NCBI RefSeq assembly: GCF_022531965.1 | Contig: NZ_CP092831.1 | Coordinates: 1,454,001-1,518,000, forward strand | Direction of reading: 5' to 3' | Source: Paenibacillus peoriae | GTDB lineage: Bacteria; Bacillota; Bacilli; Paenibacillales; Paenibacillaceae | DNA: 64,000 bases | Shown here: positions 27,037 to 39,411 of the stretch, in pieces | How positions within the stretch are numbered: the first letter of the stretch is position 1 | How the letters are laid out: each line of letters begins with the position of its first letter | Position numbers and translations under genes: made by a program | Notes under the pieces: generated by a model | The model's database searches: none | What the model was told of the DNA's origin: nothing | What the model saw: only the letters and a program-made list of their open reading frames with translations

Positions 27037-27201
27037 AGTTCTTGCTCCTCTGTGTCTGATGATCACTACATTGTTTTATTCGACATAAACCGACGAATTT
27101 TATAGATGTAATCATTGGGAAACGAGAAATAGTAGCATATTTTAGACACTTTTTTTGAAAAACAGGTCTAAAGAACTATGATTAATATTAATGCGAACAC
27201 A

Positions 27202-27248
27202 TAAAAAGCCAAATCGGAGATGCAAAAGCATCTTCACAATTTGGCTTG
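27202..27248 (-). terminator. Intrinsic terminator of the EamA gene
   Basis: On the minus strand AAGCCAAATTGTGAAGATGC pairs with GCATCTCCGATTTGGCTT and is followed by T-rich sequence. Confidence 0.75.
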
Positions 27249-27276
27249 GGTGAGTCATGAAGGGGACATTGAACTG

Positions 27277-28224
27277 TTAATTTTTTTGCTGACGTGAAAT
27301 CATAAAGAGCGTAATCCAGATGAGCATAAAACCAGTCAATTGCGCTACAGTAACGATTTGCTGAAATGCGATCCAATTAATCACGACACCCACCATGGGA
27401 AAGCTCAATTCTGCCATCGTAGCATAAGACGCTTTGGTCGTACTTAAGCCTTTGTAATACAGCAATAAGCTAAGAAGACCTGGAAGCAATGCCTGCAATA
27501 GCAAGTTGATAATCACAGCTGCGCCTGCCCATGTACCGGCAGGCATATTCCATGGCGCATGCTCTACAGAGGTGAGGACAATCAGCAGAGGGAGCGCCAC
27601 CATGAAGCGGAGGGAGGTTACCGTTTCATATTTCATTGAACGAAGCAAGTAGCTTCCCATGACTGTCGAACCGCCCCACAGAACCGCTGCACCCAGTGCA
27701 AGTAGACTACCGACCTGGACAAAATCACGAACATGCCCGAAGGGGAGCGACCAACCGAAGGTCAGAAGATACGTCCCGAACAGAGCGACGACAATTAATA
27801 ATCCAAAATGACGCGGCAGCATTTCCTTCAATATAACGCGGGCCAGAATAATAGCGACCAATGGTTGAAGCTTCTGGAGTAAGAGTACAGCATTCAGATC
27901 ACCGTTGCTGAGCGCCATGGTAAAAATCACGCTGGCCAGAGCTGAGCCGCCCCACGAGACGAACAAAATAGCGAAAACTTGACGAAGCCGTACCGCTTTG
28001 AGTTCCTCACGATGTTTCCACAGCATCGGTGTCAGAGCAAGGAAAAGCAGCATATGCTCCATTAGTACAATTTGTGTTGAAGTAAATGATTTTAGCAAAA
28101 TAATACGAAACAGCGGATCAGCGCCCCACAAGGCTGCTCCTATTGCGACCAGCCAAAAACCGCTTTTCATGTGGGAGCTATGATCAAAACCTTTGGATGT
28201 TAGTACAGTAGAAGATTGACTCAT
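27277..28224 (-). CDS. EamA/DMT-family transporter under FMN-riboswitch control (candidate flavin carrier)
   Basis: A 315-residue protein with ten hydrophobic segments in two EamA repeats, the drug/metabolite-transporter fold (WLVAIGAALWGADPLFRIIL and LLALGAAVLWGGSTVMGSYL open the two halves). I start at ATG 28224, behind AAGGAGC. The leader contains an FMN riboswitch (28406-28545) and an intrinsic terminator (28262-28305), so expression falls when flavin is plentiful. Known FMN-riboswitch targets are riboflavin synthesis genes and riboflavin importers (RibU, RibM, RfnT and, in Proteobacteria, the EamA protein RibN). By inference this protein moves riboflavin or a related flavin, probably inward. 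It is not preceded by biosynthesis genes. Direction and substrate are unproven. Confidence 0.8.
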   Translation of the reverse strand: MSQSSTVLTSKGFDHSSHMKSGFWLVAIGAALWGADPLFRIILLKSFTSTQIVLMEHMLLFLALTPMLWKHREELKAVRLRQVFAILFVSWGGSALASVIFTMALSNGDLNAVLLLQKLQPLVAIILARVILKEMLPRHFGLLIVVALFGTYLLTFGWSLPFGHVRDFVQVGSLLALGAAVLWGGSTVMGSYLLRSMKYETVTSLRFMVALPLLIVLTSVEHAPWNMPAGTWAGAAVIINLLLQALLPGLLSLLLYYKGLSTTKASYATMAELSFPMVGVVINWIAFQQIVTVAQLTGFMLIWITLFMISRQQKN

Positions 28225-28261
28225 ACTCAATTAGCTCCTTGCGAATACAGGACCGGTGGCA

Positions 28262-28305
28262 CAAAAACCCCCGTCTATGGCGAAAGGCCATGCAAGACGG
28301 GGGTT
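28262..28305 (-). terminator. Riboswitch-controlled intrinsic terminator
   Basis: On the minus strand CCCCCGTCTTGCATGGCC pairs with the CCATAGACGGGGG arm and is followed by T5. It lies between the FMN aptamer and the EamA start and is thus the expression platform. Confidence 0.85.
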
Positions 28306-28405
28306 GATCAAATAAACTTGCCGCTTTATGCAAGTTAAATGAAGTTACTGCTACTGCAAAACCCATAACGCAGCATTCATCCACTTCGCGGCATGTTGAT
28401 ATTTC

Positions 28406-28545
28406 GATCTTCTTCCATCCGGACTTTACCGTCGGCTTTGGCATCTCACCAAATCAGTCCGTATCCTGTTGCCAGATACAGAGTCGCGGGCTTAGCTCCA
28501 TGAGCCATACCGCCGGTTGGGAATCTCACCCTACCCCGAAGATCC
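28406..28545 (-). ncRNA. FMN riboswitch (RFN element)
   Basis: The minus strand reads GATCTTCGGGGTAGGGTGAG, ATTCCCAACCGGCGGTA, AGCCCGCGA, then the CCGACGGTAAAGTCCGGATG core and GAAGATC. These are the conserved six-helix RFN landmarks in the right order, and the P1 arms GATCTTC (28544-28538) and GAAGATC (28412-28406) pair perfectly. The aptamer is about 140 nt with a normal variable arm. It lies 100 nt upstream of a terminator and 180 nt upstream of the EamA gene, so FMN binding should cause premature termination. Confidence 0.95.
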
Positions 28546-28669
28546 TTATTCCGTTTTTTAATTTCTCCTATAGGATATACCTGTTTTAGAATGAAGTCCA
28601 GTGAAAAATGTGTGTATATCTAACAATGATTTTCATCTATTTTTCGAAAGCGTTTTACTAAGTTACATA

Positions 28670-29365
28670 CTATGAAGTAATATCCTTATACTCAATGCGT
28701 CGAATCGCTGCATAAGCCACAAGCATTCCCAGTATAGAGAAGCCTATTTGCACGGGGGCTATGGAGCTAAGTGTAGCGCCGTTATTATTGGAGAAAAGCA
28801 ATGCTACAATCAGGATTGAGGTCACAATGGTGGTGGGTACAGAGTATCTTCGCATCCCCATATACAGCGGAACCAGTCCCATAAAGCTGGCAGCAACGGC
28901 ATTGATCAGCGTCCGTGCTGATTGTTGACCCAGTATCGAAAGAGTAAGGTTATCGGGTACAATCAAGACAAGCTGGTTGAGCAGATGAATAGCAGCCGTA
29001 ATGATTATTTCCGAAATAATAATAGATAAGAAGGTAAACAGCAGCACAACCAAGAGCTTGGCGATCATCAGCTTCTGACGGTGAATCGGATACATGAACA
29101 GGATCGTAATCGATTTGGACTTAAATTCCCCTACGATAAAGCGGCACAGAAGAACAGAGGCAAACACAATAAATGTGGCTCTGACCAGCATGTCCATGAG
29201 ATCGAGAAGCTGAGTGTACTGTGTAAATTCGGGTATTCCTGTACTTTGGCTGTCCAGCGCGATGATACAGAGCAACCCAAGAATGCATGCATTGGCGATC
29301 AGTGCTGAACGGATATAACCCGCCAGATGAAATTTTTTCAGCTCCAATTGCATCAATTTAAGCAT
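28670..29365 (-). CDS. ABC-2 permease of a peptide-resistance-type ABC transporter
   Basis: A 231-residue membrane protein with six spans (LIANACILGLLCIIALDSQS, FIVFASVLLCRFIVGEFKSK, LLVVLLFTFLSIIISEIIIT and so on). The RFIVGEFKSKSITILFMYPI segment after the second span is typical of the permease of BcrAB- or LanFE-like exporters. I take ATG 29365, 8 nt behind GGAGG; the frame reaches GTG 29374. It overlaps the ATPase gene by 8 nt. It is the last gene of the response-regulator/kinase/ATPase/permease operon and would form the channel through which bacitracin-like or lantibiotic peptides are removed from the membrane. The substrate is inferred from the module only. Confidence 0.75.
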   Translation of the reverse strand: MLKLMQLELKKFHLAGYIRSALIANACILGLLCIIALDSQSTGIPEFTQYTQLLDLMDMLVRATFIVFASVLLCRFIVGEFKSKSITILFMYPIHRQKLMIAKLLVVLLFTFLSIIISEIIITAAIHLLNQLVLIVPDNLTLSILGQQSARTLINAVAASFMGLVPLYMGMRRYSVPTTIVTSILIVALLFSNNNGATLSSIAPVQIGFSILGMLVAYAAIRRIEYKDITS

Positions 29366-30281
29366 GGAGATCACCTCCGTTTAACAGCCGCAAAAAGTAG
29401 TCTTCTAGCGTACTGCTTTTCTGATGAATGGAATCCACTTCTATATCATTTAAAATGAGCGTCTTCGTAATTTGTTTCTGCGGTACATTTGAGTCGTAAA
29501 TACGTATATTCTGTTCATTGAGCACCCTTATATTATTCAGATTCAGATGATGGGAGAGGACGTAGGCCGCCTTTTTACAATCATTGGTCGTAAATTCGAT
29601 GTATTCCGTATTGGTTTCTCGCACCTGTTCCATCGACACTTCCTCAATCAGCCTTCCGTGATTAATCACGCCTACCGTATCCGCAATCTGCTCTATTTCC
29701 GCTAAAATATGACTGGACACGAGCAGAGTCATCCCATATTCCTTGCATAGCATGTGGAATAGTTGGCGGATTTCCTTGATTCCCACGGGGTCCAAACCAT
29801 TAATCGGTTCATCCAAAATGAGTAGCTCTGGCTTAGTCGCAATAGCGCGGGCAATCCCGAGACGCTGTTTCATTCCCAGTGAAAAGTCTTTTACCGACTT
29901 GTCACCCGCATTCTGCAAGTTTACTAATTCCAGGGCATCTCGGACAGCCTGCTTATTATAGTAGCCCATGTATTCACAATGAAGTTCCAGATTTTGCTGC
30001 GCCGTCAGCCTGTCATAAAAAATCGGGTATTCAATAATCGAACCCATCCGTCCGAGCAGATGATACGATTTTGGCGTTAGTTTTTCACCGAATAATTCAA
30101 TTTCACCCGATGTCGGCTTGAGTAAATTCGTAATCATTTTCATTATCGTTGTCTTGCCTGCCCCGTTGGGGCCGAGAAAGCCATAGGTTTCTCCCTTGCG
30201 CACATTCATGCTGACTCCTGCTACAATTTCGTTGCCCTTCAGGGCTTTGGTCAACTGATGTGTACGTATTACGTAAGTCAT
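29358..30281 (-). CDS. ABC transporter ATP-binding protein (BcrA/LanF-like)
   Basis: A 307-residue ATPase with Walker A GPNGAGKTT, signature FSLGMKQRLGIARAIA, Walker B LLILDEPINGLDP and H-loop LLVSSHILAE. The C-terminal 80 residues (YIEFTTNDCKKAAYVLSHHL onward) form the extra domain seen in BcrA/LanF-type subunits. ATG 30281 follows AAGGGAG; the frame is open to 30338 without a ribosome-binding site. It pairs with the permease (8-nt overlap) and sits 108 bp behind the kinase gene. That organisation, with a two-component system directly upstream, is common for antimicrobial-peptide sensing and detoxification in Bacillales. Confidence 0.85.
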   Translation of the reverse strand: MTYVIRTHQLTKALKGNEIVAGVSMNVRKGETYGFLGPNGAGKTTIMKMITNLLKPTSGEIELFGEKLTPKSYHLLGRMGSIIEYPIFYDRLTAQQNLELHCEYMGYYNKQAVRDALELVNLQNAGDKSVKDFSLGMKQRLGIARAIATKPELLILDEPINGLDPVGIKEIRQLFHMLCKEYGMTLLVSSHILAEIEQIADTVGVINHGRLIEEVSMEQVRETNTEYIEFTTNDCKKAAYVLSHHLNLNNIRVLNEQNIRIYDSNVPQKQITKTLILNDIEVDSIHQKSSTLEDYFLRLLNGGDLHA

Positions 30282-30389
30282 GGGTGTTCTCCCTTCGTAT
30301 ACTGCTGATAATTCAAGGATAAAGGGCGAAATGTTCATTTTTCTTTCGTGATTCTTACAAATTTATTAAGTTGAGTATGTTGAGTTCGA

Positions 30390-31334
30390 TTAATAGTTGA
30401 TTTTCTTCAATGTAAAAGAGAAGACTGTCCGCTCATAAGGTCTACTGGTCAATTGAATTTCTCCGTTCATCGTTTCAACCAGACGTTTGGCAATCGTAAG
30501 GCCCAGTCCGCTGCCTTGTACCGCCTTATTGCGGGAGTCCTCCAGTGTGTACATACGTTCAAAAACTTTATCTTGCTCAGATTCCTGTATGCCTTTGCCA
30601 CGATCCCATACCTCTATACGCACTGTATCCTGCTGTTCTGACAGCGTCAGGCCTAGCGTCCGTCCATCTGCCCCGTAGCGAATGGCGTTCGAGATCAGAT
30701 TATTCAGCACCCGCCCAATCGCTCCTTCGTTCCCCAAGGCATGAATGGGGTACTCCGGGATCTCAATATGCACAGTAAACCCCTGTGCAGTCAGCAGGTC
30801 ATAAAACTCTAAAATGCTGCGTCTGCACAGTTCTCCCACTTCCAGTCGTGTCAACGGAATATCCGTATCATTAGCTTCCAGTTTCGCCAAATTAAAAAAG
30901 CTTCCGATCAACTCAATCGCTTCGCTTGTCTTTTGATGAATTTTGGATAGCAGCTTTATACGTTCTTCCGGCAAAATAGTCGGATCGCCATCCAGCATCT
31001 CGGCATATCCAAGCACAACCGTAAGCGGGGTCTTGAGATCGTGTGAAATGTTCGAAATCATTTTGCGCATAGCAATTTGGCTACGGTTGTAATCTGCAGA
31101 CACTCTGAGATTCAAGTCCAGCAGTCGATTAATTTCCGTCATGAGTCGTTGCAGTTCAACGTCACCTGTGACATATAGCAGCTTTTCCGCATGATTCACC
31201 GTCACTATTCGCTCTAGTAGGGCTCGGATATCCCTTATTTTGCGCTTATTGGCCATACGCTCCCGCCAAAGCCATACTATAACGACTGACATGATGAGAC
31301 CGACAATCCATTCAGAAATGTTTTCGATGTTCAT
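30390..31334 (-). CDS. Sensor histidine kinase, single-span
   Basis: A 314-residue kinase from ATG 31334, which has GGGAGA at 9 nt; an ATG at 31340 is the alternative, and the long frame to 31418 lies inside the regulator gene. Only one hydrophobic segment is visible (WIVGLIMSVVIVWLW, about residues 9-23), with hardly any extracellular part. Next come a linker helix, a HisKA domain with His98 in SNISHDLKTPLTVVLG, and HATPase_c with NLISNAIRYGA (N box), WDRGKGI (G1) and GSGLGLTIAKRLVE (G2). This architecture suits a sensor that reads the state of the transporter or membrane rather than a soluble ligand. It is translationally coupled to the regulator upstream. Confidence 0.85.
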   Translation of the reverse strand: MNIENISEWIVGLIMSVVIVWLWRERMANKRKIRDIRALLERIVTVNHAEKLLYVTGDVELQRLMTEINRLLDLNLRVSADYNRSQIAMRKMISNISHDLKTPLTVVLGYAEMLDGDPTILPEERIKLLSKIHQKTSEAIELIGSFFNLAKLEANDTDIPLTRLEVGELCRRSILEFYDLLTAQGFTVHIEIPEYPIHALGNEGAIGRVLNNLISNAIRYGADGRTLGLTLSEQQDTVRIEVWDRGKGIQESEQDKVFERMYTLEDSRNKAVQGSGLGLTIAKRLVETMNGEIQLTSRPYERTVFSFTLKKINY

Positions 31335-31335
31335 A

Positions 31336-32043
31336 TCAGCCATTCTCCCATTTGTAGCCAATGCCCCATAGCGTTTTAATGTGGACAGGATGAGAGGGAT
31401 CTTCTTCAATTTTCTCACGCAGGCGGCGAATATGGACGTTAATCACGTTCTCGTCGCCCATATAATCGTCCTTCCAAATAAATCCGTATAATTGTGCTTT
31501 TGTAAATACCCGGTTTGGATTGGCTACAAACAGCTTCAAAATATCGGATTCTTTGGCTGTTAGCTGAATTTCGTTTTCATTGCGTATGACTGTAAAATGA
31601 TCAAAATCAATGCACAGACTGCCGTAGGTCAAAACTTGTGCTTGCGGCTGTTCCTCCTGCTGTTGCTGACGGGCATATGTAGTAGATCTGCGGATCGCGG
31701 ACTGAATACGAGCGGTCATTTCCAGCATTGAAAAAGGTTTGGCAATATAATCGTCTGCCCCAAAGCCCAGTCCAAGCGCTTTATCCACGTCGCTGTCCTT
31801 GGCTGACATAATCAGAATCGGGACGGCGCTATGGGTACGAATTCGTCGAATCACCTCCATACCGTCCACCTTCGGCATCATCAAATCCACCAGTACCAGA
31901 TCATAGGTATGACGTTCAAAGGCAAGAAGCCCCTCTTCCCCGTCATAGGCAGTGGTTAGGCTGTATCCTTCCTTAGTGAGTGCTTTAAGTAGCATTTCGG
32001 CAATGGATAGATCGTCTTCAATAAGTAAAATATGCTGTGGCAT
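31336..32043 (-). CDS. OmpR-family response regulator
   Basis: A 235-residue two-domain regulator. The receiver shows acidic pocket EDD (residues 9-11), phospho-acceptor Asp53 in LVLVDLMMPKVDG, Thr/Ser switch ILIMSAKDSDV and Lys in YIAKPFSMLEM. The C-terminal winged helix contains ELQLTAKESDILKLF-like, RVFTKAQLYGFIWK and VINVHIRRLREKIE. It heads the operon with the kinase and the ABC genes and probably activates them on peptide challenge. The start ATG 32043 has only a weak GGGGTG behind an inverted repeat (AGGTGT-gga-ACACC), which may limit translation. Confidence 0.9.
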   Translation of the reverse strand: MPQHILLIEDDLSIAEMLLKALTKEGYSLTTAYDGEEGLLAFERHTYDLVLVDLMMPKVDGMEVIRRIRTHSAVPILIMSAKDSDVDKALGLGFGADDYIAKPFSMLEMTARIQSAIRRSTTYARQQQQEEQPQAQVLTYGSLCIDFDHFTVIRNENEIQLTAKESDILKLFVANPNRVFTKAQLYGFIWKDDYMGDENVINVHIRRLREKIEEDPSHPVHIKTLWGIGYKWENG

Positions 32044-32289: not shown

Positions 32290-32462
32290 TTCCCAACCTC
32301 TTAAAAGGGTGAGACGTGGAATTTCTTAGAGGTGCAAGGGTTTTAGACGTTTTTTTCTACAATTTGAGGGGAGGGGTCTACGGTTGGGAAAAAATTGCGA
32401 AACCCTAGTGGCTGTAGTAAAATAAGCACATTATTAAAACTGAAAAGCTTGATTCTACTAGC
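32290..32462 (+). promoter_or_regulatory. CRISPR leader 1
   Basis: It starts with TTCCCAACC (32290-32298) and has the matching GGTTGGGAA at 32382-32390. The leader core GAAACCC...GGCTGTAGTA...TGATTCTACTAG then runs directly into the first repeat. The same elements occur in front of the other two arrays. The leader position at the left, opposite the degenerate last repeat, fixes the array orientation as rightward. Confidence 0.8.
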
Positions 32463-34269
32463 CTTTAACCACAACATGTGATGTATTGAAATCGTTTTAG
32501 TTGGTAGTTGGTGGGTGGTGGGTGGTTGCCTTTAACCACAACATGTGATGTATTGAAATCTCCCTGTCCTCACCCTCCGTCTGAACGAAAACCAGCTTTA
32601 ACCACAACATGTGATGTATTGAAATCAGTTTACCGGACTGAGAGAATACCTTCCTAATCGACTTTAACCACAACATGTGATGTATTGAAATTGTGGTGTC
32701 CGCATCTGGAGACAAGAGCGAACAAGACTTTAACCACAACATGTGATGTATTGAAATCTGTATAAAGGATTTCCTTCTGTGATCCATACTCTTCTTTAAC
32801 CACAACATGTGATGTATTGAAATTTTTCCTATCCTCCTTTCTCACTGTAAACAATTGTACTTTAACCACAACATGTGATGTATTGAAATTCGCTCAAAGC
32901 AGGCATATTTGTATCGACCGTATCGCCTTTAACCACAACATGTGATGTATTGAAATACATTCGCGGAGCTTGGGCAGTGCAAAGGTAAAACCTTTAACCA
33001 CAACATGTGATGTATTGAAATTATGTATTTTTATAGCCAACTACTTGACCTTTACCACTTTAACCACAACATGTGATGTATTGAAATTATTGTTCAAACG
33101 CAACACCATGCATAAATTATTTGCTTTAACCACAACATGTGATGTATTGAAATACGCACATTGTTCGCTCGATGTCGGAAAGTCTGTTCTTTAACCACAA
33201 CATGTGATGTATTGAAATAAAAATGTCCAGGAGGATCTAAGTATCTGGCCGATCCTTTAACCACAACATGTGATGTATTGAAATGGTACTGGATCGGCTG
33301 CAAGGTCTGGACGCTTGGAACTTTAACCACAACATGTGATGTATTGAAATTCATGACGATTATTGCGGTAATCGTTGCGGCCATGGCTTTAACCACAACA
33401 TGTGATGTTTGAAATCCAGGTATTCCCCCGCAGGTGCATCTGTGACAACGGACTTTAACCACAACATGTGATGTATTGAAATTTGCCTGAGAACACCACA
33501 CCCGTATTGCCTGACCCCTTTAACCACAACATGTGATGTATTGAAATCTTTGAGCAAAGAGGTTCCTTTGACATGAATAGAGCTTTAACCACAACATGTG
33601 ATGTATTGAAATTTGCCTGAGAACACCACACCCGTATTGCCTGACCCCTTTAACCACAACATGTGATGTATTGAAATCTTTGAGCAAAGAGGTTCCTTTG
33701 ACATGAATAGAGCTTTAACCACAACATGTGATGTATTGAAATTACGCTTGACGCCCTCCCGCTGTCGAGAAGTCTGTGCTTTAACCACAACATGTGATGT
33801 ATTGAAATATCTTTCAAGTGTTTGCGCCCGTGTTTCGTATTTGTCTTTAACCACAACATGTGATGTATTGAAATCGGAAAATCTGCGTGAAAGCTTCGTG
33901 TAAAACGTCCGCCTTTAACCACAACATGTGATGTATTGAAATGTATTTTCACCCATCTTAGCTGTTCATCAATTCTACTTTAACCACAACATGTGATGTA
34001 TTGAAATTTTTGGACAGATTCGAACCCGGTAAGGCAGTATTATCTTTAACCACAACATGTGATGTATTGAAATACATGTATAAACTTCCTCCTTATATTT
34101 AGGAAAACTTTAACCACAACATGTGATGTATTGAAATAAGGCTGGGTTGAGGCGTAAGCCAGTACCTACGATGCTTTAACCACAACATGTGATGTATTGA
34201 AATAGGAGTGACACGGCTTCACCCGCTTTCGGGTTAGCTCTTTAACCACAACATGGAATGTATTGAAAA
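32463..34269 (+). CRISPR. CRISPR array 1, type I-B, 28 repeats / 27 spacers
   Basis: Thirty-base repeats start CTTTAACCACAACATGTG and end ATGTATTGAAAT, with spacers of about 34-38 nt. I count 28 repeats with starts from 32463 to 34240. The last (34240-34269) is degenerate (ACATGGAATG, ending GAAAA), as expected at the old end. One internal repeat (33387-33415) is one base short. A two-unit block (33483-33612) is duplicated exactly at 33613-33742. The repeat end ATTGAAAT gives the 8-nt handle expected from Cas6 cleavage. All units lie on the plus strand; the apparent proteins on either strand are translations of the repeat. Confidence 0.98.
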
Positions 34270-34363
34270 TACTCGGCCTCGTTTCTGCAAAAGTGCTTTT
34301 TCGATGCTCAACGATCAAAATTATTTAGTTTCATCCTTCCATGAACTCCATTCTTTTTTATTG

Positions 34364-34405
34364 AAAAAACCTCCTAAGCCACTTAAAGTGGTCAGGAGGT
34401 TTTTG
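34364..34405 (+). terminator. Intrinsic terminator after array 1
   Basis: AAAACCTCCTAAGCCACTT / AAGTGGTCAGGAGGTTTT with T5, about 95 nt beyond the last repeat. It would end the pre-crRNA. Confidence 0.8.
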
Positions 34406-34687
34406 ACATTTGCATGCATTTGGGTTTTAGAATACTTTTTAAATCTCAAATTTTGAAAGCATGATTTATATAAAGGACTTCAGAAAATCACAATTACAAT
34501 GTAGCTCATAGCCATTAGTAAGAATATTTCCGAACAAAAAGTAAAAGAAACATCGGAGGTTATGGTCATAGTCTAGTTTCAGTATTTTAAAACTAGAAAT
34601 ATAAATTTAAATACACAAGTGTTTTATTCATTATGCGCATTATTTTTTTTAGATGCATTTACATTATACTCTTAAGTAAGCGATCTC
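34406..34687. other. AT-rich spacer between array 1 and leader 2
   Basis: No coding frame with a ribosome-binding site and no recognised motif. The high A+T content is consistent with promoter-bearing or decayed sequence. Confidence 0.35.
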
Positions 34688-34713
34688 AACATAGACCAAA
34701 GGTCTATGTTTTT
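34688..34713 (+). terminator. Hairpin directly in front of leader 2
   Basis: Perfect 10-bp stem AACATAGACC / GGTCTATGTT with loop AAA and T3; the next bases begin the TTCCCAACC arm of leader 2. It insulates array 2 from read-through. Confidence 0.7.
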
Positions 34714-34883
34714 CCCAACCTTATAAGAGCTAGAAAGAGGTAACTCCTTAGATCACCAAGGGATACAGCTATTTTTCTTAGCACTTGGCAAGAAGCGACC
34801 TACGGTTGGGAAAGAATTGCGAAACCCTTGTGGCTGTAGTAAAATAACGACATTGCGATTTTGGAAAGCTTGATTTTACTAGC
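34712..34883 (+). promoter_or_regulatory. CRISPR leader 2
   Basis: TTCCCAACC (34712-34720) and GGTTGGGAA (34804-34812) enclose about 83 nt that differ from leader 1. The downstream core (ATTGCGAAACCC, GGCTGTAGTAAAATAA, AAGCTTGATT, TACTAGC) is nearly identical to leader 1. Confidence 0.8.
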
Positions 34884-36352
34884 CTTTAACCACAACATGT
34901 GATGTATTGAAATGCAGCACTACCGGATTCTCTCGTATAAGCTCCGTCCTTTAACCACAACATGTGATGTATTGAAATGAATATCCTCGTTTACGTTAGC
35001 AGTTGTCATTTTAACTTTAACCACAACATGTGATGTATTGAAATATCTTTTAACGTTGGCTCTCCGATCCCCACGATCAGCTTTAACCACAACATGTGAT
35101 GTATTGAAATGACGAAATTTTCATATGCCTAGCTGTAACAACCATCTTTAACCACAACATGTGATGTATTGAAATACCATCATGTCCGCATCCTCCGGCA
35201 ACTCCTCGGTACTTTAACCACAACATGTGATGTATTGAAATGAACTGCACTCTGTAACTGTGTAACACACGATTGACTTTAACCACAACATGTGATGTAT
35301 TGAAATATGAAAATAAGCCATCAAAAACCAATGCCAAAATCGTCTTTAACCACAACATGTGATGTATTGAAATCACGCTCGAAAACGTCGTAATGCTCTC
35401 CTCGGAACCTTTAACCACAACATGTGATGTATTGAAATAAACCCGGCTCCAAGCCACCTGATCTTTGCCGCAGTCTTTAACCACAACATGTGATGTATTG
35501 AAATTCGGCATACAAAGTGTCTCCTGCAAGAAATACATAGCTTTAACCACAACATGTGATGTATTGAAATCTTCTAAAACTAACTTACTAATATCGACAC
35601 TCTTCACTTTAACCACAACATGTGATGTATTGAAATGCATATATAGACCCTCGGGGGGAACCTTCATCCATAACTTTAACCACAACATGTGATGTATTGA
35701 AATATACCTCGACGCTTCCCGGTCCCTCTGGATCAGCTCCTTTAACCACAACATGTGATGTATTGAAATAAGTAACTGCGGATCTCTTCCACGCTGTACC
35801 CCTGCCTTTAACCACAACATGTGATGTATTGAAATGGTGTGAATGTAACTTTGTTTATGATGCCATCAGCTCCTTTAACCACAACATGTGATGTATTGAG
35901 ATTTTGTTCAAATGAAGGCAATACTATTTCAGAAACGACTTTAACCACAACATGTGATGTATTGAAATTCAACATTTTTATGTTGTTCCTGATCTTTGTT
36001 GTGTCTTTAACCACAACATGTGATGTATTGAAATTGAATTCAGGTACAGCAGGATCGTTTATATTAAAGTCTTTAACCACAACATGTGGTGTATTGAAAT
36101 TACGTTTGTCCATCTACATGCATAGGCCGTGGAACTTTAACCACAACATGTGATGTATTGAAATTGCTATTGTCAATGCCACAGGTAGCGCACAGCATGC
36201 TTTAACCACAACATGTGATGTATTGAAAATATGAAGCTGGCGTTAGGAGCTGTTTAAATTCTTTAACCACAACATGTGATGTATTGAAATTGGGTTGCAG
36301 TCAGCGCTTGAATCGTAGACATTCTTAAACCACAACATGGATGTATCGAAAT
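34884..36352 (+). CRISPR. CRISPR array 2, type I-B, 23 repeats / 22 spacers
   Basis: Same repeat as array 1. Repeat starts run from 34884 to 36324. Two repeats have single changes (GAGAT end near 35900, TGGTG near 36088), and the last (36324-36352) is clearly degenerate (CTTAAACC, ACATGGATG, TATCG). The spacers look unrelated to those of array 1. The array ends 308 bp before the cas6 start. Confidence 0.98.
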
Positions 36353-36660
36353 AAGAAATTGTACGTGTCATTTATTTTGGTTGCTATCCTTCAATTTCGT
36401 ACTGAGTCCTAAGCAGTAGGGAAGAATTGTTCTGGAGAAGCGTAAGCGTCTATCTTTATTCCGATTTTAATCCTCGAAGGGTTTATACAATCCAGAAAAT
36501 CCAGAAAATCCGCGGATAACAGCGACCGGAAGGACAATCTGCACGTGTAGCAATTTAAATACCGTTGCATTTTATTATAAAAATATAATTATAATGAGAA
36601 ATATATTTACAAATCATGGAGCGAGGTCTATACTTTATATCAGATCAGGAGGTGTACGTA
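36353..36660. other. Intergenic region before cas6
   Basis: About 300 bp without a gene. A candidate promoter for the cas operon is TTGCAT (36565-36570) with TATAAT (36590-36595), 19 bp apart in a very AT-rich stretch. A short direct repeat (CCAGAAAAT twice near 36493) has no known meaning. Confidence 0.4.
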
Positions 36661-37365
36661 TTGTATTATGAAATTCACATAACAACGTTAATTAAACAAT
36701 CATCTCACCATCTGGAGATACCGGAGCGTATCGGAGCCTGGATTGGTCGGGCTGGGTTGAAGGACGAAGCGTTGAAGCAGACGCACTACGACAAGGACTA
36801 CAAGCACTATACATTTGGGTCGCCTTTTCCGCGTGAAAAGGAGGGGGTATACAAACAAGGTCGTGTATACGTCATTACGATTCACAGCTCCGTAGAGCTT
36901 ACGCTACGTCGAATATCCGCAGCATTGCAAGCTTTGCAGGAGGATGAGTATTTCCAGTTTATCGCCGCATCCCCTGTACAGTCCAAGAAGCTGGCACATA
37001 TTACCGAGCTTACCACCGTTACTCCTGCTATTGTTACGATTGAAGGCAAACCGTGGGTGCCGAGTCTGAGTGTGGAGCTTTTACTGCAACGGATTCATGC
37101 TAATGCGGAGAAAAAATACAATCATTTATACCCGGATCAGCCTGTTCGATTGGAACAACCTTTTGTCGAAGGGATTCAGGTGTTGAACCATAAACCGATT
37201 GCCTTGGTCTATAAAGGACGTAAGCTATTAGGTAATAAACTGCGCTTGCTTGTCAGAGAAGATGAATATTCACAGAAGTTAGCAAGTGTGGTATTAGGTT
37301 CAGGAGCGGCAGAAAAGAATAGTATCCTTGGGGCAGGCTTTTGTATCGCCAAAGGACTGGAATAA
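36661..37365 (+). CDS. cas6: CRISPR-associated endoribonuclease Cas6
   Basis: A 234-residue pre-crRNA processing nuclease of the RAMP superfamily. The ferredoxin-like N-terminus is YYEIHITTLIKQSSHHLEIP, and the C-terminal glycine-rich loop NSILGAGFCIAKG is the Cas6 hallmark. I choose TTG 36661, 6 nt behind GGAGGTG; the frame to ATG 36616 has no ribosome-binding site and would add residues foreign to the family. It cuts inside the repeat to leave ATTGAAAT as the 5' handle. It is the first gene of the cas operon, 21 bp before cas8b. Confidence 0.85.
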   Translation: MYYEIHITTLIKQSSHHLEIPERIGAWIGRAGLKDEALKQTHYDKDYKHYTFGSPFPREKEGVYKQGRVYVITIHSSVELTLRRISAALQALQEDEYFQFIAASPVQSKKLAHITELTTVTPAIVTIEGKPWVPSLSVELLLQRIHANAEKKYNHLYPDQPVRLEQPFVEGIQVLNHKPIALVYKGRKLLGNKLRLLVREDEYSQKLASVVLGSGAAEKNSILGAGFCIAKGLE

Positions 37366-37386
37366 CGTGGAAAGGAGGCGTAGGGT

Positions 37387-39411
37387 ATGCTGAAGGATTT
37401 GACGAACAGCTATCTATTGGCGAAGAATGATTTTCCCAACATCACATTTCTAAGACACCAACCCAAGGAAGGGCTGTATATTCGACTGCGACTAGATCAA
37501 AGCTGGAATGAACAGGTCAGCGTGTTTGATAGCGAGCATATGATTATTACCAAAGAAGAACCCGATCTATCACGCAAGGGACTTTTTGAATGGTTCCAAC
37601 AAAAAGATTATGTGAGTTCTCTGATCTCTATGAACAAAGCTGTAGATCCCGGCAAACAGCTTCATTCTAATAACCCGTACACCCTATATGCAAAAAGGGA
37701 TGTATTTTTAGCCGAGCCACTGGCAGCTGGAACCACCGGGATGAGCACGCATCTTGCCCGTTTTCTGGACAAGACTCAGGCATCTGAGGTGCAGAAAAAG
37801 TGGGATGAGTTGATAGGTGCCAAGAAGACTAGCAGCAAGAAAGCCAGTAAGAAAAGCAGCACCGAGACTATCTTCACCAGTCCTACGCAGCAATTTTTCT
37901 CTGATACGGATTATGCACCTGCACTGGAATATCTCGTAAGTGAGGAGCGCCGAACACATATTGCACAGATTGAGCAATGGTACGCTACAAACCTGTCGGC
38001 TCTCATTGAACATATCCGAACCATTCCTTTTAAGAATTACGTTAAAATCTTTTTCACCTCAGAACCTACTCCACTTCACTCATCAATGGATCACCCATCT
38101 AACGAATCTTCCAGCTTTTACTCATGGGACGAAATGTATGGCTATGAATATTTGCTATATACCATCCCAAAAATCTTTAATAGTAATGACTATAACCAAA
38201 TGGTAGACGGAGCTTTGACAGGTCTTCCCGGTTTTAATATGAGCATGAACAGCAAGAAGCCGTATTTAGAGCATAAAACGATGCGTGTCGGAGCGCCCAT
38301 TCGTTTATCTCTAGAGGAAGCATTGCTGGTAAAGGAAGCGTCTGAATGGCTCCTTTCTCAGCCCAAGTTTCGAATGAACAAATTCGGTTATCATACGGAT
38401 TTTTCCAAGAATTCTGAGAAGATAGCAGAAGGCTATTTTTTGGTTTACATGGAGGGTAAGGATAACGAGGTGCAAGACTTTGAAAATGTACCTTTCTCCA
38501 AAAAAGTTCATGTCAATATCCGACTCAAGAATGTATTGGGTGTGATGACCAAAAATAACGATGGCGAAGCGTTTGTGAAGGATTACGGCTCTCTGGAAAA
38601 TGTGGAGCAACTGCAAAAGGAAATTAGCAAACGCTTTTTTCGCGGACGGATGAACGGTGATTTTCTTCAAGATGAACCGAAAGCGAGAGAAAAGGATTTT
38701 ACGAGTGTGATGGTCGCGTTGTTTATGCAGAGCAAAAAGGGCTTTTATGACTGGATTTTCAAAGGAACGGCCGCCACGATCCGCTCTCAATTTGCACGCG
38801 TAACGCTTCGACTCATAGAGGAACAGCTATTACGAGTAGAGCCAGCAGGACAAGAGAAGTCTAGATTGGATCTACGTGGGTTGGCCGATGCGATGAATGT
38901 AAGACTTTCGCTAATGGCTTATTTGGAAGGGGAGGAATACACAGCTATGGGAAATCGCCTGATTGCAGTGTCTAATGGACTGAAAGACAAACTGGAAACG
39001 CTAGAAAAGCGAAAACCAAAGGAAAATACAGACCCAGTCTATGTAGAGACGGATGATGAGTTTTATTATTTGGCAGGGCAGCTTGCCTTCTATTTGAAAA
39101 GTCAGTCCGAAGCCCAGCAGAAAAAGGGGGATTTGCTTGGAACTTTTTTCATGGCAAAGCGCAGTGCACAGCTCAAAAAACGGATCGAAGAAGCGTATCA
39201 TTTGCATCGTCACAAAATGCGATTACATCACACTAAATTAAATTGGGCTTTAGGCCAAGTGTATGGATACCAGCCGGACAAAGAATTCCAGCATGAAGAT
39301 GCAAGGGAGATGTTCTTAGCGGGGCTATTTTCAGACAATTGGTTCTGGAAGAAAGGCGAGAGAGAGAAACCAAACAGCGAAGGGGAGAACGGATATGGCG
39401 AAGAAAACTAA
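37387..39411 (+). CDS. cas8b: Type I-B large subunit Cas8b
   Basis: A 674-residue large subunit of the I-B effector (Cascade). It is placed by operon position between cas6 and cas7, by size, and by overall character (Lys/Glu-rich with a helical C-terminal region), as in Csh1/Cas8b proteins; sequence motifs are weak in this family. ATG 37387 lies behind AAAGGAGGCG. It should recognise the PAM and contact Cas5 and the 5' handle. The C-terminal 154 residues probably also exist as a separate small subunit through an internal start (see 38947). It overlaps cas7 by 17 nt. Confidence 0.8.
   Translation: MLKDLTNSYLLAKNDFPNITFLRHQPKEGLYIRLRLDQSWNEQVSVFDSEHMIITKEEPDLSRKGLFEWFQQKDYVSSLISMNKAVDPGKQLHSNNPYTLYAKRDVFLAEPLAAGTTGMSTHLARFLDKTQASEVQKKWDELIGAKKTSSKKASKKSSTETIFTSPTQQFFSDTDYAPALEYLVSEERRTHIAQIEQWYATNLSALIEHIRTIPFKNYVKIFFTSEPTPLHSSMDHPSNESSSFYSWDEMYGYEYLLYTIPKIFNSNDYNQMVDGALTGLPGFNMSMNSKKPYLEHKTMRVGAPIRLSLEEALLVKEASEWLLSQPKFRMNKFGYHTDFSKNSEKIAEGYFLVYMEGKDNEVQDFENVPFSKKVHVNIRLKNVLGVMTKNNDGEAFVKDYGSLENVEQLQKEISKRFFRGRMNGDFLQDEPKAREKDFTSVMVALFMQSKKGFYDWIFKGTAATIRSQFARVTLRLIEEQLLRVEPAGQEKSRLDLRGLADAMNVRLSLMAYLEGEEYTAMGNRLIAVSNGLKDKLETLEKRKPKENTDPVYVETDDEFYYLAGQLAFYLKSQSEAQQKKGDLLGTFFMAKRSAQLKKRIEEAYHLHRHKMRLHHTKLNWALGQVYGYQPDKEFQHEDAREMFLAGLFSDNWFWKKGEREKPNSEGENGYGEEN
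38947..39411 (+). CDS. cas11b: Putative internally translated small subunit Cas11b
   Basis: Within cas8b and in the same frame, GGAAGGGGAGGAA (38926-38938) stands about 10 nt before ATG 38947. That is a far better ribosome-binding site than chance would give inside a gene. The product would be 154 residues, almost all helical (MGNRLIAVSNGLKDKLETLE at the front). Internal translation of Cas11 from cas8 has been shown experimentally for types I-B, I-C and I-D in other organisms. Here it is inferred from the sequence only. Confidence 0.55.
   Translation: MGNRLIAVSNGLKDKLETLEKRKPKENTDPVYVETDDEFYYLAGQLAFYLKSQSEAQQKKGDLLGTFFMAKRSAQLKKRIEEAYHLHRHKMRLHHTKLNWALGQVYGYQPDKEFQHEDAREMFLAGLFSDNWFWKKGEREKPNSEGENGYGEEN

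Follow-up and report, generated by a model that had tools for sequence, protein, structure and literature searches.

An EamA gene behind a flavin mononucleotide riboswitch in Paenibacillaceae: a candidate flavin carrier

What does a membrane carrier transport when its gene stands behind a flavin mononucleotide (FMN) riboswitch, in a bacterium that also has riboflavin synthesis genes? The question is raised by a locus of Paenibacillus peoriae that lies in a window of 64,000 nucleotides (the whole stretch of DNA analyzed; contig NZ_CP092831.1, positions 1,454,001 to 1,518,000) of a one-contig genome of 5.84 Mb. In this window, an FMN riboswitch precedes a gene for a protein of the EamA family of drug/metabolite transporters (DMT). 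The initial annotation had stated that the riboswitch controls this gene and had called the product a candidate flavin carrier. The first statement received strong support from co-inheritance in 295 genomes and from terminator-bearing leaders in relatives, and we regard riboswitch regulation of the gene as well supported. The second is the best inference available: with a probability of roughly 80%, the carrier imports a flavin, most likely riboflavin. We infer FMN binding, the import direction, and the flavin cargo.

The aptamer matched the full length of the Rfam covariance model RF00050 (model positions 1 to 138) at an E value of 3.1e-26, and its 115.6 bits compare with a gathering score of 66.2 (Table 1). 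The RFN element landmarks named by the initial annotation are present, on the minus strand; the interval given there (28200..28545) takes in the greater part of the aptamer and, of the EamA gene, no more than its first bases. Between aptamer and gene, 97 bases beyond the aptamer, lies the G+C-rich hairpin with five T that the same annotation had read as a terminator, and it provides the expression platform of an FMN riboswitch. A generic terminator scan of positions 27180 to 28760 returned 3 sites, near the level of shuffled sequences (1.6; standard deviation, 1.2), so the case for this hairpin is built on its strength and conservation. A promoter scan returned two sites, both on the plus strand, the strand opposite to the aptamer and gene. 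The EamA open reading frame (ORF) may start at ATG 28224 or at TTG 28230; the ATG is the likelier start because, by reading, AAGGAG stands ten bases upstream. The gene looks like a single-gene transcription unit, as its stop codon is followed by a hairpin with a T run and then by an unrelated chemotaxis receptor gene (ORF 27066-25006), the next gene on the same strand; the description of a lone EamA/DMT gene (PF00892, 102.3 bits) behind the riboswitch was therefore borne out.

Table 1. Features of the riboswitch-EamA locus (window positions)
Feature	Positions	Strand	Basis
FMN riboswitch aptamer (RFN element, RF00050)	28403..28547	minus	Rfam cmscan, 115.6 bits
Leader intrinsic terminator: stem AACCCCCGTCT / AGACGGGGGTT, then TTTTT	28263..28305	minus	terminator by rule in homologous leaders
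Shine-Dalgarno-like AAGGAG	28235..28240	minus	by reading
EamA/DMT carrier, 315 amino acids from ATG 28224 (317 from TTG 28230), predicted flavin importer	27277..28224	minus	PF00892, orthologs, predicted fold
Hairpin with T run, probable terminator	27203..27247	minus	by reading; unflagged by crude terminator rule

Riboswitch and gene were found to be inherited together. The nearest named relatives of the protein come from Paenibacillus, and on this basis the genus (g1) and family (f1) of the genomes sampled are taken to be Paenibacillus and Paenibacillaceae. FMN riboswitches were detected in all 75 genomes of the genus searched, with exactly two in 74 genomes and one in the other. In a family sample of 295 genomes from 19 genera, an EamA ortholog (E value of 1e-50 or better) was present in 194 genomes. 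At least two FMN riboswitches occurred together with the ortholog in 193 genomes, and at most one riboswitch and no ortholog in 100. The two discordant genomes were G307 (two riboswitches, no ortholog, 7% contamination) and G313, which is 88% complete and has the ortholog and a single riboswitch, the EamA one. By reading, both states (pair present and pair absent) occur within eight genera (g2, g4, g5, g6, g9, g12, g13, and g17), and riboswitches were recounted in seven of these mixed genera, with a single riboswitch in, e.g., 3 of 42 g13 genomes and 1 of 19 g6 genomes. The 295 genomes are related and do not amount to 295 independent events. Joint loss or gain across several genera would nevertheless be hard to explain unless riboswitch and gene act as one unit.

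The arrangement itself was examined by tblastn in 52 riboswitch loci (L001 and L010 to L060), 50 of which have the EamA gene downstream, with a spacing of ~91 to 191 bases in the 50 leaders (gene start extrapolated). In the other two (L027 and L028), the riboswitch precedes a ribD-like ORF, by reading. Since these loci were the best-scoring ones of the genus and family searches, it is the genome counts that carry the argument for linkage. The riboswitch was also upstream of the ortholog in 17 of 17 further loci of the family, which were drawn for the most part from genera with less coverage in the first set. In Paenibacillaceae, an FMN riboswitch followed by the EamA gene is the rule. By the initial annotation, its claim would fall if the riboswitch of relatives acted on some other gene; with 50 of the 52 high-scoring loci preceding this gene and two a ribD-like ORF, that possibility was rejected. 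A chance neighborhood or an annotation artifact is scarcely credible given the agreement of riboswitch and ortholog in 293 of 295 genomes and the spacing in the 50 leaders, and the genus and family counts led us to reject chance neighborhood.

The genome has two FMN riboswitches. The second (C1:3397725-3397898, minus strand, 101.9 bits) has its own terminator and heads ribE, ribB, and ribH, an operon that lacks ribD and, from ribBA, the half for GTP cyclohydrolase II. These two steps are supplied by a ribA-ribD pair at ~4.945 Mb of C1, ~1.5 Mb from the operon and beside a gene for a flavin adenine dinucleotide (FAD)-dependent oxidoreductase; no FMN riboswitch was found at this pair, the two of the genome lying elsewhere. 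The stretches concerned are L003:5492-7412 and L009:4970-6831. Early and late steps of riboflavin synthesis thus seem, from their leaders, to be under different control. With ribA, ribB, ribD, ribE, and ribH all present, the cell is expected to be capable of riboflavin synthesis. In the available text of PMC6593275, facilitator-type riboflavin transporters are described as seen only in riboflavin makers, a pattern that fits a carrier in a genome with riboflavin synthesis genes. Matches to S components of energy-coupling factor (ECF) transporters were weak in this genome: one PF12822 match was just over the cutoff (with neighbors in frame) and one under it, and PF07155 matched at an E value of 5.8e-8. 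Neither FMN riboswitch precedes an S component.

Homologous leaders support a terminator-type switch. A hairpin with a T run was found by rule in 41 of 50 leaders, by a folding search in three more (L010, L011, and L021), and by eye in L012; the sequence of the stems varies across leaders and their pairing is kept. In at least the L039 to L042 leaders, AGGAGG lies close to the start of the gene. In the proposed mechanism, the nascent leader would fold into the FMN-bound aptamer when FMN is plentiful, the terminator would form, and the EamA gene would stay silent. When FMN is scarce, transcription would run on and the membrane carrier would be made, bringing riboflavin, FMN, or another flavin into a riboflavin-making cell; it would work like RibN without being a RibN ortholog. 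Such off-type behavior of the leader is suggested by known FMN riboswitches together with the presence of the terminator. A gene expressed at low FMN alongside the riboflavin operon would act usefully at that time by import. Export is the role of many EamA/DMT members, the genome has about a dozen further EamA genes, and the protein's relatives carry only the names DMT, EamA, or "multidrug transporter," all of which could be taken to favor export of flavins or of a toxic flavin analogue. We consider export very improbable, since a terminator-type FMN switch would bring about expression at low FMN, the wrong time to export, and a leader of this type also heads the genome's riboflavin operon.

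The protein has two PF00892 stretches, as expected of a two-repeat EamA protein. Its best NCBIfam match, TIGR00950, reached 39.5 bits against a cutoff of 230 and gave no specific assignment. PF00892 was the sole Pfam domain found, whereas a RibU protein would have PF12822 or PF07155; RibU with its ECF module, the usual Gram-positive importer behind FMN riboswitches, shares the regulator and the expected job with the EamA carrier and belongs to a different Pfam family. No chain of solved structure matched the sequence at E values up to 1. The predicted fold is a DMT fold, nearest to LicB and 5i20, both DMT proteins, but the fold comparison did not tell cargoes apart, and no flavin carrier was among the matches listed. 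LicB, the choline importer of Streptococcus pneumoniae, differs in cargo and shares 16% identity.

RibN is an EamA protein. The carrier might therefore be a member of the known RibN or ImpX family and nothing new, and the comparison with RibN suggested by the initial annotation bears on this directly. We used as RibN-type three Rhizobiales proteins (L299, L302, and L305), so labeled from the combination of riboswitch and EamA. Like the P. peoriae protein, they have two PF00892 stretches and ~300 residues, and their genes come first after an FMN riboswitch. The clade of the P. peoriae protein adjoins them in the tree (support of 96/84) on long branches, a RibN-type protein gave the best BLASTP match from beyond the clade among the rows that were compared (E value of 4e-6), and a three-row RibN-type profile matched the clade at an E value of 9e-9; one EamA paralog from the same genome gave 2e-8. 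The clade profile scored the RibN-type proteins at 7, 6, and -1 bits, under three paralogs of the protein's own genome (26, 17, and 8 bits). With the long branches and these higher-scoring paralogs, no sister relation between the clade and RibN is claimed. The shared EamA class thus stands, and orthology does not: identity was 24.6% over 207 residues and 25.8% over 178, with no match to the third protein, compared with a published threshold of >38% identity over ≥80% coverage (PMC4418817, cited here and below from the available part of its text; the reference there is R. leguminosarum RibN, and here the three Rhizobiales proteins). RibN orthology was rejected on these figures. The same source reports RibN only from Proteobacteria and places ImpX behind FMN riboswitches in Firmicutes, Fusobacteria, and Proteobacteria. 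ImpX, known here by description (Fusobacterium and some Firmicutes), is commonly encoded in riboflavin makers by a lone gene that follows an FMN riboswitch (PMC4418817). Membership of either known family appears unlikely, and the best reading is that the carrier belongs to a putative distinct EamA subfamily of Bacilli, not orthologous to RibN, with ImpX known by description only.

Polar residues invariant in the clade (E56, H57, Q117, K118, Q120, R206, Y256, Y257, and E272, with N283 in 35 of 36 proteins) were not found in the three RibN-type proteins. This difference could indicate that the cargo is not riboflavin itself but a related compound co-regulated with flavin supply, such as FMN, FAD, a late precursor (e.g., lumazine), or a flavin-like antibiotic. 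The EamA family handles many substrates, and the riboswitch of the riboflavin operon governs the late genes ribE-ribB-ribH, with ribA-ribD elsewhere and without one. The linkage of riboswitch and EamA gene holds, however, also in G047, where the L027 riboswitch precedes the ribD-like ORF (the L028 genome, G031, lies outside that sample). Moreover, RibXY, RibZ, and ImpX, picked by their riboswitches, and RfnT, picked by clustering, enabled a riboflavin auxotroph to grow at low riboflavin (PMC4418817). We therefore judge a related compound to be a quite unlikely cargo and favor riboflavin.

The arrangement extends beyond the family. A profile of 14 members, run against 398 Bacilli genomes (cutoff of 1e-35 or better), matched in 60 genomes, 23 of which are outside the family. 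An FMN riboswitch lies upstream on the same strand at 18 of these 23 ortholog loci; one is that of Alicyclobacillus pomorum, for whose relatives the family name Alicyclobacillaceae is our inference. The five remaining orthologs all retain the residues of 61 of 65 near-invariant columns; each of the four others is altered in a single protein. A scan of a broad sample with a riboswitch pattern gave at least 119 stretches, of which the 80 listed were used; 75 had a downstream ORF, and 74 of these were scanned for domains (L217, which has a masked run, was omitted). Among the matches listed, EamA accounted for 3 of the 74 downstream genes, compared with 16 for ECF S components, 16 for the RibD C-terminal domain, 13 for 3,4-dihydroxy-2-butanone 4-phosphate synthase, and 11 for lumazine synthase, counts that are approximate because some first ORFs were wrongly chosen. 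An EamA carrier in this position had been called less usual in Gram-positive bacteria, which agrees with these counts for riboswitch targets overall and not with the family, where the ortholog is widespread.

The three EamA cases among those matches were from Paenibacillus doosanensis (L207), A. pomorum (L174), and a Bacillota metagenome genome (L184, also L298). In the last of these, the gene behind the FMN riboswitch is an EamA gene of a very different kind (L184:5378-6217, minus strand). That gene resembles the others in its riboswitch and PF00892 domain, and the other riboswitch of its genome heads a ribD-like gene, but the clade profile scored it at 0.3 bits, from which we conclude that it is probably a separate recruitment of EamA. 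The broad scan also placed the riboswitch pattern shortly upstream of large ORFs read as TonB-dependent receptors (L190:119-2542, minus strand; L238:6709-7998, plus strand) in Prevotellaceae and Bacteroidaceae genomes, with two Plug-domain matches. Their products are perhaps outer-membrane flavin receptors.

Several observations weigh against flavin import under riboswitch control. The riboflavin synthesis genes looked for are present, so a need for uptake is not obvious. The RibU-type domain PF07155 was found at its curated cutoff in 203 of 295 family genomes, many of which may have a further flavin importer. Two FMN-riboswitch targets in PMC4418817, yaaDE and a carbohydrate kinase, have no obvious flavin role; set against the tested riboswitch-linked carriers of the same source, they leave the flavin inference good but not certain. 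At 5 of the 23 orthologs outside the family (L130, L135, L136, L137, and L142), Rfam detected no FMN riboswitch, permissive threshold included. Of 125 loci, only 27 were flagged by the crude rule as having a terminator behind the gene.

The leaders supply two further points of this kind. No terminator was found in 5 of the 50 (L039 to L042 and L047), all from genus g6, of which another leader, L059, has one. The terminator-less leaders may act on the ribosome site, i.e., may have switched to translation control. In a classical antiterminator, the 5' CGGGG of the aptamer is joined to the C-rich arm of the terminator. The terminator arm paired best with the 5' segment of the aptamer in 41 of 41 leaders, but only 6 of the 41 beat 95% of shuffles, the mean pairing energy was -11.4 kcal/mol compared with -10.0 for shuffled arms, and exchange of arms between aptamer classes gave no coevolution signal. 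An antiterminator defined by complementarity thus did not pass the shuffle and swap controls in these 41 leaders.

Elsewhere in the window, genes for an ATP-binding cassette (ABC) permease and ATPase occupy positions 28670 to 30338 on the minus strand; the best NCBIfam match of the ATPase, TIGR03740 (lantibiotic protection), was under its cutoff. Adjoining them, at 30390 to 32043, are a histidine kinase and a response regulator. Clustered regularly interspaced short palindromic repeats (CRISPR) with a period of ~66 bases were detected at 32441 to 36100 and 36616 to 39411, in one array or two; Cas6b and Cas8b matches (type I-B) come after them. Within this region, a 130-base stretch is exactly duplicated in tandem at 33453 to 33712.

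An FMN-riboswitch-controlled riboflavin carrier is an already known kind of system, its EamA version in Proteobacteria included, and the mechanism is ordinary. As far as the searched literature shows, the new element is an EamA subfamily of its own that occupies this position in several Bacilli families. That literature, subscription papers excepted, contained no report of an EamA gene behind an FMN riboswitch in Paenibacillus or Alicyclobacillus; in the available text of PMC12452182, PMC7266159, and PMC13273304, the word pairs searched for were present and the subject matter was another. A wider proposal, to which we give even odds, is that an EamA lineage of Bacilli, separate from RibN, took on flavin uptake independently, with a different binding pocket, and now serves Paenibacillaceae and Alicyclobacillaceae as their standard FMN-controlled carrier, in the place that RibU has in other Firmicutes; together with RibN and the distant Bacillota gene, EamA would then have been recruited to the FMN riboswitch at least three times.

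The finding is useful as annotation. If true, it would give a specific, testable job to genes in 194 of 295 family genomes whose relatives are named only as DMT, EamA, or multidrug transporters. It would also add a riboflavin transporter family in Gram-positive bacteria with synthesis genes, where the relevance of having transporter and synthesis genes together has been called unclear (PMC4418817). Comparison of one fold that handles flavins more than once would become possible. Paenibacillus species are root dwellers, and secreted flavins are important in that habitat; flavin uptake by this carrier may therefore bear on their interaction with plants.
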